A stretch of DNA of 64,000 bases from contig DASQHX010000011.1 in the NCBI GenBank assembly GCA_035631875.1, forward strand, positions 124,001-188,000. The letters run 5' to 3'. A model generated the notes under the pieces. That model did no database searches. It was not told the origin of the DNA and worked only from the letters and a program-made list of their open reading frames with translations. This stretch comes from Nitrosopumilaceae archaeon (GTDB taxonomy: Archaea; Thermoproteota; Nitrososphaeria; Nitrososphaerales; Nitrosopumilaceae). Below, in pieces: positions 1,602 through 3,994 of the stretch (its first letter is position 1; every line of letters begins with the position of its first letter). Both the position numbers and the translations under genes were made by a program.

Positions 1602-2082
1602 CTAATCCTCAGGTTCTTTGCTCCCCATATCTTTTATTCCTTCCTTTCTTTTTTTCTTTAATAATTTTTTTAGACTGTCTAACGACGTTTTCTTTTTACA
1701 AACTTTCTTGATCAGTATTTTTCTTTGTTATTTCTTCCGGTGTTACTATCATTCTTAGCTATCTTGATATCATTTCAACTGCACTAAGGTAATCTTTACT
1801 TTTCTTGCAATACTAAATTATATCAATCATCATAACTTTACAAATTCTAGTAATGATTATTCCCTTTCAAATTCTTTCAGCCATGTAACTTTTAAAACAA
1901 TAAATCCATCTCATTTTCAACTTAATTTTGCAGTTATATTTTACCAAACTATTTTCTTTGCTATGATGAAAGTAATTTTGTTTCCATTTATCAAAAACCA
2001 CTGTTTTATACTCTACATGTCTGCCTTGCCAACTAATCCTTTAGAATCAATGAATATCCCAGTCTTGTCAAACTATATTCTA
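1602..2082 (-). pseudogene. Decayed reverse-strand gene with several frameshifts
   Basis: The reverse complement reads as consecutive protein-like blocks in shifting frames. In order these are TGIFIDSKGLVGKADM (about 2067-2020), then VEYKTVVFDKWKQNYF and onward to SYMAERI (about 2019-1873), then KKSKDYLSAVEMISR (about 1810-1766), then MIVTPEEITKKNTDQESL (1752-1697), then SLDSLKKLLKKKRKEGIKD ending at TAG 1604-1602. Blocks are separated by single stops or frame changes. Composition is lysine- and isoleucine-rich like the neighbouring genes, and the plus strand is correspondingly T-rich. No block alone is long enough for a gene and I do not recognise the family. The alternative is chance open stretches in AT-rich DNA. 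Confidence 0.4.
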
Positions 2083-2149
2083 CTCAACGTATATTCTGAT
2101 AAGCATATATACTGTATAGCATATATTCCAGACAGCATATGATAGTAGG
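2070..2149 (+). repeat. 16-bp-period iterated motif (iterons) running into the ATPase start
   Basis: The heptamer TATATTC/TATATAC occurs at 2074, 2090, 2106 and 2122, exactly 16 bp apart. The longer half-unit AGCATAT occurs at 2102, 2118 and 2134, also at 16-bp steps, and the last copy contains the ATG of the next gene. Aligned 16-mers start at 2070, 2086, 2102, 2118 and 2134. This regular spacing resembles iterons of replicon initiators or a multi-site operator for autoregulation. Some units also resemble TATA boxes, so promoter function may overlap. Confidence 0.65.
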
Positions 2150-3293
2150 TAAACCGCCTAAAGATGTTGTAGACAGAAAAGAGGAAGTAGGAAAAATAGT
2201 AAACACTATGCTTGATACAAAAGCCAATGTGAACTATGCCTTGATCGGGCATAGAAGGATCGGAAAGTCAACCATATTGGGAGAAGTAAGGCGTCAAATA
2301 GGTAAGAAACTTATCACAGTATACGTAGATTTTGGAGAATTTCGATACTCACCAGTTGACCTTGCCGAGAAATTAACTGAGGAACTGACACATGCGTATT
2401 ACAATACACTACCTACCACGTCAAAGATTGCATCCAAAGTAAAATCTGCATTAACACAGCTAAGTGAAATAAAGCGAGTCCGTGCAAGATTTATCGCAGG
2501 CATTGACGAACAGGGCAGTCCAATAATAGCAATAGACCCGTACGTCAAAGACAGGGATGAAAACTATCGCAAGGCGTTAACAGACGTCTTCGAGTATGCA
2601 AACAAGATATCTGAGGCTTCTGGTCGTAGAGTCGTAATCATAATAGATGAATTCCAGCACATTATAGAATACAAAAAATTCTCTGATCTAAAAAATATTC
2701 TTGATGTCATTCGAGCTATCCTTGAGCGCAGAAAGAATGTCTCCTTTATAGTAAGCGGTTCAAGAATACATTATCTGAGAAATATTCTGGCAGAAGGAGG
2801 CAGTCCACTCTTTGGTCATTTTATCATACTAGAGATAAAGGAATTGGCAAAAATCTATGCGGTAGAATTATTTCTAAAGTCTCAGCCTGCTGCAAGCAAG
2901 CAAGATGCCGAGCGAGCATTTGATCTTGTTGGAGGACATCCATTTTATCTTGTAATGCTTGGACATGCATACAAAAAGACAGAGTCGTTGACAGATACAT
3001 ATCAAGAGTTGCTTACAAGTACTACAGGAGCACTGTACATCTATGTCAATTATATTGTAACAGAAGACTTGGGCTCTGATTACAAGAGTACTGCATACTG
3101 GAAGATACTTGTCTCGCTGTCTACAGGAGAAAAGACAGTGTCTGATATTGCAAAGGATGCTTCTCTTAAAATGACAGGCCTGCCCAAGTTTTTGACTAAA
3201 TTGATAGAGTACGACTTGGTTCAAAAAACTGAAGGAAAGTACAGTATAACAGACAAGATAATTCGAGACTTTTTTAACAGTTACTGGGTATGA
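2139..3293 (+). CDS. Archaeal STAND-type ATPase (Arch_ATPase family) with C-terminal winged helix
   Basis: 384 residues. Walker A is GHRRIGKST (residues 37-45), Walker B is VVIIIDEFQH (about 166-175), followed by a sensor strand FIVSGSR; an HPFYLVMLG segment (about residue 270) matches the GxP-type module of this family. The C-terminus (LPKFLTKLIEYDLV, then a beta wing) looks like a winged helix. This is the ATPase group expanded in archaea, often on mobile or plasmid DNA, with a proposed role as an NTP-driven regulator or adaptor. The start ATG lies in the last unit of a 16-bp repeat array, suggesting autoregulation or an initiator-like role. It stands alone, with no operon partner. Confidence 0.85.
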   Translation: MIVGKPPKDVVDRKEEVGKIVNTMLDTKANVNYALIGHRRIGKSTILGEVRRQIGKKLITVYVDFGEFRYSPVDLAEKLTEELTHAYYNTLPTTSKIASKVKSALTQLSEIKRVRARFIAGIDEQGSPIIAIDPYVKDRDENYRKALTDVFEYANKISEASGRRVVIIIDEFQHIIEYKKFSDLKNILDVIRAILERRKNVSFIVSGSRIHYLRNILAEGGSPLFGHFIILEIKELAKIYAVELFLKSQPAASKQDAERAFDLVGGHPFYLVMLGHAYKKTESLTDTYQELLTSTTGALYIYVNYIVTEDLGSDYKSTAYWKILVSLSTGEKTVSDIAKDASLKMTGLPKFLTKLIEYDLVQKTEGKYSITDKIIRDFFNSYWV

Positions 3294-3730
3294 AGTGAAT
3301 TAGTATTTTCCTGTCTCTCTCCCTTCTCTCAAACTTTTTTTACTGATAAAGTCGCGTCTTGGCCACAGACTCCTAACAGAGTATCATCCTAGCATAATTT
3401 TTTTTATGCTAGGATGATACCATAGAAAGAACCCCAAAGAATAGTGCAATTCTCTCTCAAATTTGTGTCTGGACTTGCAAGATTCGAATCTTATTATGTT
3501 TTTAAAGTGAGGGAACTAAACTAACTGAACAATTCCCATAGTGGAACCCAATTTTTTTATTAAATTTGATCGCATTCTTGTACATGTAATTTCTACACAA
3601 TACTTATCGATCTATTTTTTAAAAATAAATTCAAACCAATAATAGAACGAGATCAATTCTGTAGTCTAGATAGAATACATGCGCAATATTTTATAGATAA
3701 GCACATCAACGATCATACGAGTTGTGAAAC
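3294..3730. other. Noncoding stretch with hairpin and palindrome
   Basis: No gene is seen. It holds the long hairpin at 3381-3420, a perfect 14-bp palindrome AAGATTCGAATCTT (3479-3492) and the 16-mer GAGGGAACTAAACTAA (3509-3524), which recurs with one change at 6427-6442. Confidence 0.5.
3381..3420. terminator. Perfect 17-bp hairpin with T6 loop
   Basis: The arms GTATCATCCTAGCATAA (3381-3397) and its exact reverse complement (3404-3420) are separated by six T residues. It lies about 90 bp after the ATPase stop. It could be a bidirectional transcript end, a site bound by a protein, or the footprint of a mobile element. Archaeal termination normally relies on T-runs rather than hairpins, so the terminator label is provisional. 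Confidence 0.45.
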
Positions 3731-3994
3731 ATGGAAGTCGTGGAGATGGCGCCTAGTACAAAAAATATCAACGTAGACGTGATGAATAGGATACTGAAGG
3801 TATTGTATGAGCAGAGCCCAATAAAGCTGACAAACCTTGCAATGGCTTCAGGCCTGAACTACAACACATGCAAAAGATATTTGCATTTGATGAAAATCTT
3901 TGGCTGGATAGAAACTTCAAGTGAGGACGATGTTACCATGGCTAGAATTACAGAAGCAGGCGGAAAAATTCATAGTACGTTGAATGATCAATAG
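3731..3994 (+). CDS. Small winged helix-turn-helix transcription regulator
   Basis: 87 residues. Residues about 13-80 form a compact winged helix: VMNRILKVLYEQSP, then the HTH KLTNLAMASGLNYNTCKRYLHLM (given here as its landmarks SPIKLTNLA and NYNTCKRYL), then a wing and the closing MARITEAGGKI. This is a common archaeal small regulator type that binds DNA as a dimer. The start could be the ATG at 3731 or the Met at codon 6. It stands alone between noncoding stretches, upstream of a secreted-protein gene it might control; no ligand domain is present. Confidence 0.75.
   Translation: MEVVEMAPSTKNINVDVMNRILKVLYEQSPIKLTNLAMASGLNYNTCKRYLHLMKIFGWIETSSEDDVTMARITEAGGKIHSTLNDQ

Follow-up and report, generated by a model that had tools for sequence, protein, structure and literature searches.

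A phased array of 16-bp dyad units over the promoter of an archaeal STAND-type ATPase gene as a candidate autoregulatory operator

A 64,000-nucleotide stretch of DNA from an ammonia-oxidising Nitrosopumilaceae archaeon (hereafter the window) carries a tandem array of 16-bp dyad units that lies over the promoter of a gene encoding an ATPase with a C-terminal winged helix. The array is conserved among orthologues, is restricted to this gene in their genomes, is replaced by arrays of other sequence in remote homologues and recurs together with the gene at unrelated genomic locations. We consider the array a likely private operator, to which the ATPase would bind with its own winged helix so as to repress its own gene. 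The ATPase as the binder, repression as the effect and a guarded, possibly antiviral switch as the role are what we infer for this system.

The array, the promoter and the ATPase gene

In the window, TATATTC starts at positions 2074, 2090 and 2122 and TATATAC at 2106, all at steps of exactly 16 bp, while copies of AGCATAT are found at 2102, 2118 and 2134 and the ATG of the ATPase gene (2139) falls within the final AGCATATG. These positions and steps, as well as the start codon inside the last copy, had been described in an earlier sequence-only reading and were borne out by our recount. Written as 16-mers, the array reads TATATTCTACTCAACG / TATATTCTGATAAGCA / TATATACTGTATAGCA / TATATTCCAGACAGCA / TATG (Table 1). 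The consensus unit, AG[C/A]ATATATTCT followed by a 4-bp spacer, is a 16-bp dyad present in three to four units from 2074 to the ATG; this symmetry is an addition to the earlier description. Both AGAATATATTCT and the junction TATATTCT-nnnn-AGAATATA are self-complementary, indicating that the half-sites flip orientation every 8 bp. The pattern TATATNC-N9-TATATNC had four matches in the 64 kb, all of them in the array, when 0.02 were expected from shuffled sequences. Similarly, the 150 nt upstream of the ATG reached a tandem score of 24 against a maximum of 14 in 5000 shuffles. The runner-up score anywhere in the window was 13, which makes the array the strongest periodic signal of the 64 kb, and it was also called by Tandem Repeats Finder.

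Table 1. Features of the array-bearing locus (window coordinates) and array units of related genes.
Feature	Position	Strand	Remark
Minimal shared gene-plus-array unit	2005..3319		93% identity with L002, neighbourhood otherwise unrelated
Array unit 0, TATATTCTACTCAACG	2074..2089	+	Lineage-specific 5' extension; degenerate in L002/L003, missing in L004-L006
Array unit 1, TATATTCTGATAAGCA	2090..2105	+	Near-invariant across six aligned orthologues, one position C or A
Array unit 2, TATATACTGTATAGCA	2106..2121	+	TATATA centre at -30.5 from ATG
Array unit 3, TATATTCCAGACAGCA	2122..2137	+	Between TATA box and start codon
Last half-site, AGCATAT	2134..2140	+	Overlaps start codon at 2139
Conserved operator core (-49..-1)	2090..2138		Three units plus ATG-proximal half-site
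ATPase gene, 384 aa	2139..3293	+	ATPase_2 plus C-terminal winged helix
Walker A / P-loop GHRRIGKS, residues 37-44	2247..2270	+	G37, R39, R40, I41, G42, K43 invariant in 12 homologues
Walker B IIDEFQ, residues 168-173	2640..2657	+	D170, E171, F172, Q173 invariant in 12 homologues
C-terminal winged helix, residues 319-372	3093..3254	+	HTH_45 E 9e-7; proposed array-binding domain
Array unit of L009, TGATATATATATCA			
Array unit of L010, L019, L021, GTATATATAC			
Array unit of L020, L022, L024, CTTATATATAAG			
Array unit of L078, L082, ACATATATGT			Nitrososphaera-type orthologues
Example family arrays			AGTTCCGGTGCGGAACTA x2, AACTACCACGGTGGTAGTG x2, ATTACGGCGGCGTAATT x2, ACTAATCATGATTAGT x2

TATA-like hexamers peaked at -24 to -31 before the ATG in 207 ORFs of these genomes, which is the mark of leaderless promoters. 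The TATATA centre of unit 2, at -30.5, occupies the TATA-box position expected for a leaderless transcript, and the array therefore spans the TATA box together with the likely start site and the ATG itself, which the unit at -14 and the final half-site cover. Occupancy of the array should block initiation. As in operator arrays, conserved dyad sites lie over the TATA box and start of the gene's own promoter, accompany the gene in homologues and do not occur elsewhere in the genome.

The encoded protein scored 52.8 bits against the PF01637 ATPase_2 profile (cut-off 33.2), which together with the Walker A and B motifs makes it a member of that family, and 29.2 bits against HTH_45 (cut-off 25.5) in a C-terminal winged helix that follows the lid. 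The AlphaFold model (mean pLDDT 75.7) comprised an ATPase core, a lid and a winged helix, the latter with helices at residues 319-327, 334-340 and 345-357 plus two strands, mostly at block mean pLDDT values of 80-94. A profile search against solved structures returned 2FNA (SSO1545) and 2QEN (PAB2304) with E-values of 2e-16 and 2e-14. Foldseek also placed 2QEN and 2FNA as the top two matches, followed by ORC2/Cdc6, plant NLRs, CED-4 and Avs3, and listed TnsC as a remote structural match. SSO1545 and PAB2304 have the same fold and the same domain order (ATPase core, helical lid, C-terminal winged helix) at about 20% identity to the window ATPase in structural alignments. Profiles and model place the protein in the STAND/MNS clade and the ATPase_2 family; it is neither an Orc1/Cdc6 protein nor a plasmid Rep. 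A winged-helix ATPase of STAND type, as proposed in the sequence-only reading, is upheld by both profile matches, the structure matches and the model.

Other features were noted around the gene. Roughly 90 bp past the ATPase stop codon, at 3381-3420 and outside the region common to orthologous loci, there is an inverted repeat of two perfectly matching 17-bp arms around a 6-nt loop (GTATCATCCTAGCATAA / TTATGCTAGGATGATAC), perhaps a terminator. An actin-like gene without a Pfam match (3-833) had matches of E 1e-40 or better in only 2 of 61 relatives, and an actin-like gene (MreB_Mbl, E 5e-8) also lies shortly upstream of the ATPase at locus L004. The segment 1580-1930 is non-coding and AT- and pyrimidine-rich, and pieces of it are 73-86% identical in L003 (410-597 and 1369-1514) and L004 (5517-5567); these pieces are dispersed intergenic repeats.

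Conservation among orthologues and arrays across the family

Orthologues with 82-94% identity are present in other Nitrosotalea-type genomes, and the promoters of six orthologues were aligned and compared between two subclades. The 49 nt before the ATG were 81% identical between subclades; three 16-nt blocks farther upstream showed 22%, 29% and 31% identity in a simple position comparison, and both the aligned upstream DNA and the fourfold sites showed about 52%. AGmATATATTCT was retained with a constant 16-bp phase, and AG, ATAT and the following TC were in register across orthologues. In units 2 and 3 the 4-bp spacer varied among orthologues, and the 5'-most copy (2074) was not conserved in the more distant ones. 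The sequence-only reading had named a search for the same array before orthologues as a check, and orthologues without the array did not turn up.

The specificity of the array was analysed by scanning 13 genomes for the pattern TATATTCT-NNNN-AGMATATA. Exact matches occurred in seven of them, all with an orthologue and solely in front of it, and there was no exact match in the six genomes having only remote homologues. Sites with one or two mismatches were scattered in the scanned genomes, at counts that fluctuated around the reversed-pattern control. A regulon is unlikely because none of the seven genomes with an orthologue has a further zero-mismatch site, and a regulon box was discarded as a candidate since such sites lay nowhere else in the 13 genomes. 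The array thus appears to be a private site of the ATPase gene.

Homologues at 34-37% protein identity had dyad arrays with a 16-bp step in the corresponding position, and the flanks around TATATA were different (Table 1). The same operator type mostly went with similar recognition-helix segments, such as the VPY-EL shared by L020, L022 and L024, an association that is confounded with phylogeny. We then extended the comparison to 143 archaeal ATPase_2 genes, with 293 ORFs of the same genomes or of related ones as controls, scoring tandem units of 13-21 bp within 150 nt upstream and clustering the ATPases at 60% identity. Tandem units passed in 21 of 48 ATPase clusters and in 4 of 293 control promoters (Fisher p about 1e-16), a control rate that is approximate because the control ORFs were naively called. 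The lags of the passing clusters were mostly 14-19 bp, chiefly 16. When compared to unit-permuted sequence, 13 of the 21 array units were individually palindromic and none of the four control repeats was; the window's own family gave p = 0.14 in this test, and AT-only units are partly TATA-like, which inflates the apparent symmetry. Array bearers included ATPase_2 proteins with a winged helix and ATPase_2 proteins with DUF234, and a large Thermoproteia subfamily was mostly without arrays. The view that nearly all ATPase_2 genes have arrays is thus too strong, and arrays characterise some parts of the family. Since many PF01637 genes lack arrays, the array is dispensable for ATPase function as such. 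In two haloarchaeal plasmids (L264 and L265), remote ATPase_2 genes are also preceded by short tandem repeats with a step of 15 bp (GTTAGTAAAATCGAG and TATTATAGCCCAGGC), hinting that the arrangement extends beyond Thermoproteota.

Candidate binders of the array

In the explanation that we favour, the winged helix of the STAND/MNS-clade ATPase would bind the AGAATAT half-sites, and dimers or an ATP-driven oligomer would align side by side along the DNA at 16-bp steps. Such a row of protein would cover the TATA box in unit 2 as well as the start site and ATG, excluding TBP/TFB and RNA polymerase. The ATPase gene would be held low until the ATPase changes state and releases, the switch being its nucleotide or oligomeric state, although the effect of the array may be activation instead of repression. 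Winged helix and array would change together in diverged lineages, so that each family member regulates only itself. The sequence-only reading had envisaged an ordered protein array and a self-regulated ATPase; this part of it fits the conservation among orthologues, the exclusivity within genomes and the new arrays of remote homologues, and is retained here as a prediction.

A more ambitious reading, to which we give considerably less credence, is that each lineage of these single-gene mobile immune-type ATPases possesses its own hypervariable DNA address, read only by its own winged helix. The array would then act as a self-sensing leash on which the ATPase is parked. The protein would be freed when its DNA-bound state is lost or outcompeted, as might occur upon infection, host takeover of transcription or its arrival at a new TATA box. 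Protein and array would co-diversify, allowing related copies to coexist in one genome without cross-talk.

Alternatively, another host factor (AbrB/MazE-like, Sso10a-like or of TBP type) might bind the array and the ATPase gene would merely be its target, which seems unlikely. Two small DNA-binding proteins do neighbour the ATPase, a MazE/AbrB-like frame of 59 residues (1401-1577) and an 87-aa HTH_45/Sso10a-like winged helix (3731-3994), but both are absent from the other array-bearing loci, including the orthologous ones. A host regulator should moreover have other sites, whereas zero-mismatch sites were found only at the ATPase gene, and the sequence of the array differs between ATPase lineages. 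The TATATA in the units resembles a TBP site, yet TBP leaves the conserved AG..CT flanks unexplained.

Mobility of the unit, defence links and significance

The ATPase was the sole gene common to all array-bearing loci, whose other neighbours differed. Homology between loci started 50-290 bp before the ATG and stopped no more than about 150 bp past the stop codon, in unrelated neighbourhoods. The window and L003 shared scattered blocks in the left flank, for which reason we do not treat the two as clearly independent sites. In L005 and L006 the gene occupies the same location, beside tRNA-Gly and upstream of rps6e, and in 12 of 12 relatives examined that location lacked it. L006 contains a 1766-bp insert (L006:3692-5487) with only the array and the ATPase, bordered twice by AACATTATATAGTTT, which occurs once in the empty site; this 15-bp target duplication lies over the TATA-type sequence that separates tRNA-Gly(ccc) from a divergent gene. 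The insert also carries 41-bp subterminal direct repeats. Such repeats of L005 and L006 were considered as att sites and rejected, as the comparison with the empty site puts the ends farther out, at the 12-15-bp duplication. Neither terminal inverted repeats nor a transposase or recombinase were seen in the mapped 1766-bp insert, which accordingly does not qualify as a transposon or IS element. An empty site for the window's own copy was looked for and none was found. These comparisons show that the gene and its array, with the promoter, move as one autonomous unit of about 1.8 kb.

This mobility raises the possibility, in our judgement a slim one, that the array is a recombination site at which the ATPase assembles so that its own 1.8-kb unit can move, perhaps with TATA boxes as targets. 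The L006 insertion, duplicating a TATA-type promoter sequence where 12 relatives show an empty site, is consistent with it, as is the remote structural match to TnsC, one of the AAA+ ATPases that guide transposition. However, the array is located inside the unit beside the gene and not at the unit ends, which vary from copy to copy and showed no terminal inverted repeats. The unit also lacks a recombinase gene, and a further insertion with a matching empty site could not be mapped.

The sequence-only reading had also proposed that the array consists of iterons, the ATPase being a replication initiator at the origin of an integrated replicon. Iteron-type plasmid initiators do have direct repeats about 1.5-2 turns apart beside the gene of the presumed binder. 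The place of archaeal ORC2/Cdc6 after 2QEN and 2FNA in the Foldseek results, the mobility of the gene-plus-array unit and the AT-rich region before the array would agree with such a role. Nevertheless, the protein belongs to ATPase_2 plus HTH_45, with no match to a Rep or Orc1/Cdc6 family, and the sole Cdc6_C match in the genome is on another contig (C9) and not near the array. The 1.77-kb insert has no polymerase, primase, integrase or second gene, and the array overlies the promoter and the start codon themselves. No viral or phage homologue was found in the collections searched, and plasmid matches were only remote. As for the GC skew, its local minimum near 2.1 kb coincides with the AT- and pyrimidine-rich non-coding DNA at 1600-2100 and alone is no origin signal. 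We therefore abandon the integrated replicon as very improbable. Short TATA repeats are common in AT-rich composition, but a chance or neutral minisatellite is hardly credible given the selection on the 16-bp phase across subclades, the absence of the array from shuffles and the recurrence of arrays before homologues, and the conservation contradicts a neutral repeat.

A role in defence or conflict, likewise put forward from the sequence, has gained some links, but they are weak. PDC-S27, a candidate defence family enriched in Archaea (PMC12988326), was the best PADLOC match of the ATPase (E 3e-10, covering positions 82-302 of the 474-position profile) and of its homologues (E 3e-10 to 7e-18 overall), the matches being of partial length and weak to moderate. 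We found no test of PDC-S27 defence activity in the literature searched. One Nitrososphaera-type orthologue lies directly beside seven CRISPR repeats at 75-77-bp spacing (L228:1-560) and another beside a single CRISPR repeat (L227:9394-11537), with a divergent cas6 (Pfam Cas6_C match) and cas3, cas5 and cas7 assigned by reading of the ORFs; in both, the operator array starts about 8-11 bp past the last repeat. At L003, hsdM is directly downstream of the ATPase, and such neighbours were not seen at the other loci. A defence role of the ATPase is plausible.

In the literature searched, we found no report of operator arrays before archaeal ATPase genes, including those of the SSO1545/PAB2304 type, which does not prove their absence. 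Stf76 of pSSVx is described as recognising two sites in its own promoter (PMC4027180). Like Stf76 and phage repressors, the window ATPase is predicted to bind at sites in its own promoter; it differs from them in that the presumed regulator is a STAND-type ATPase and that the array is continuous and phased across TATA box, start site and ATG and has a sequence proper to its lineage. A looser precedent is the mycobacterial IniR, whose ATPase domain has been likened to that of SSO1545 and which binds a promoter directly in vivo (PMC5760070). This signal-transduction ATPase activates another operon, its sensor domain is MalT-like, and its DNA-binding domain, which differs from that of the window ATPase, has been likened to SdiA (PMC5760070). 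The array also stands apart from the sites of iteron initiators in lying on the promoter itself, with no replicon around it.

Archaeal ATPase_2-type ATPases are abundant and often present in multiple copies. If a large share of the family (21 of 48 clusters) has its own dyad array, these arrays would give a direct handle on the targets of the winged helices. On that condition, the many protein/operator pairs would also constitute a ready-made recognition code, and there would be a testable model for the silencing of NLR-like switches in archaea. The arrangement would also explain how the ATPase gene can move alone, as its own regulated promoter comes along.
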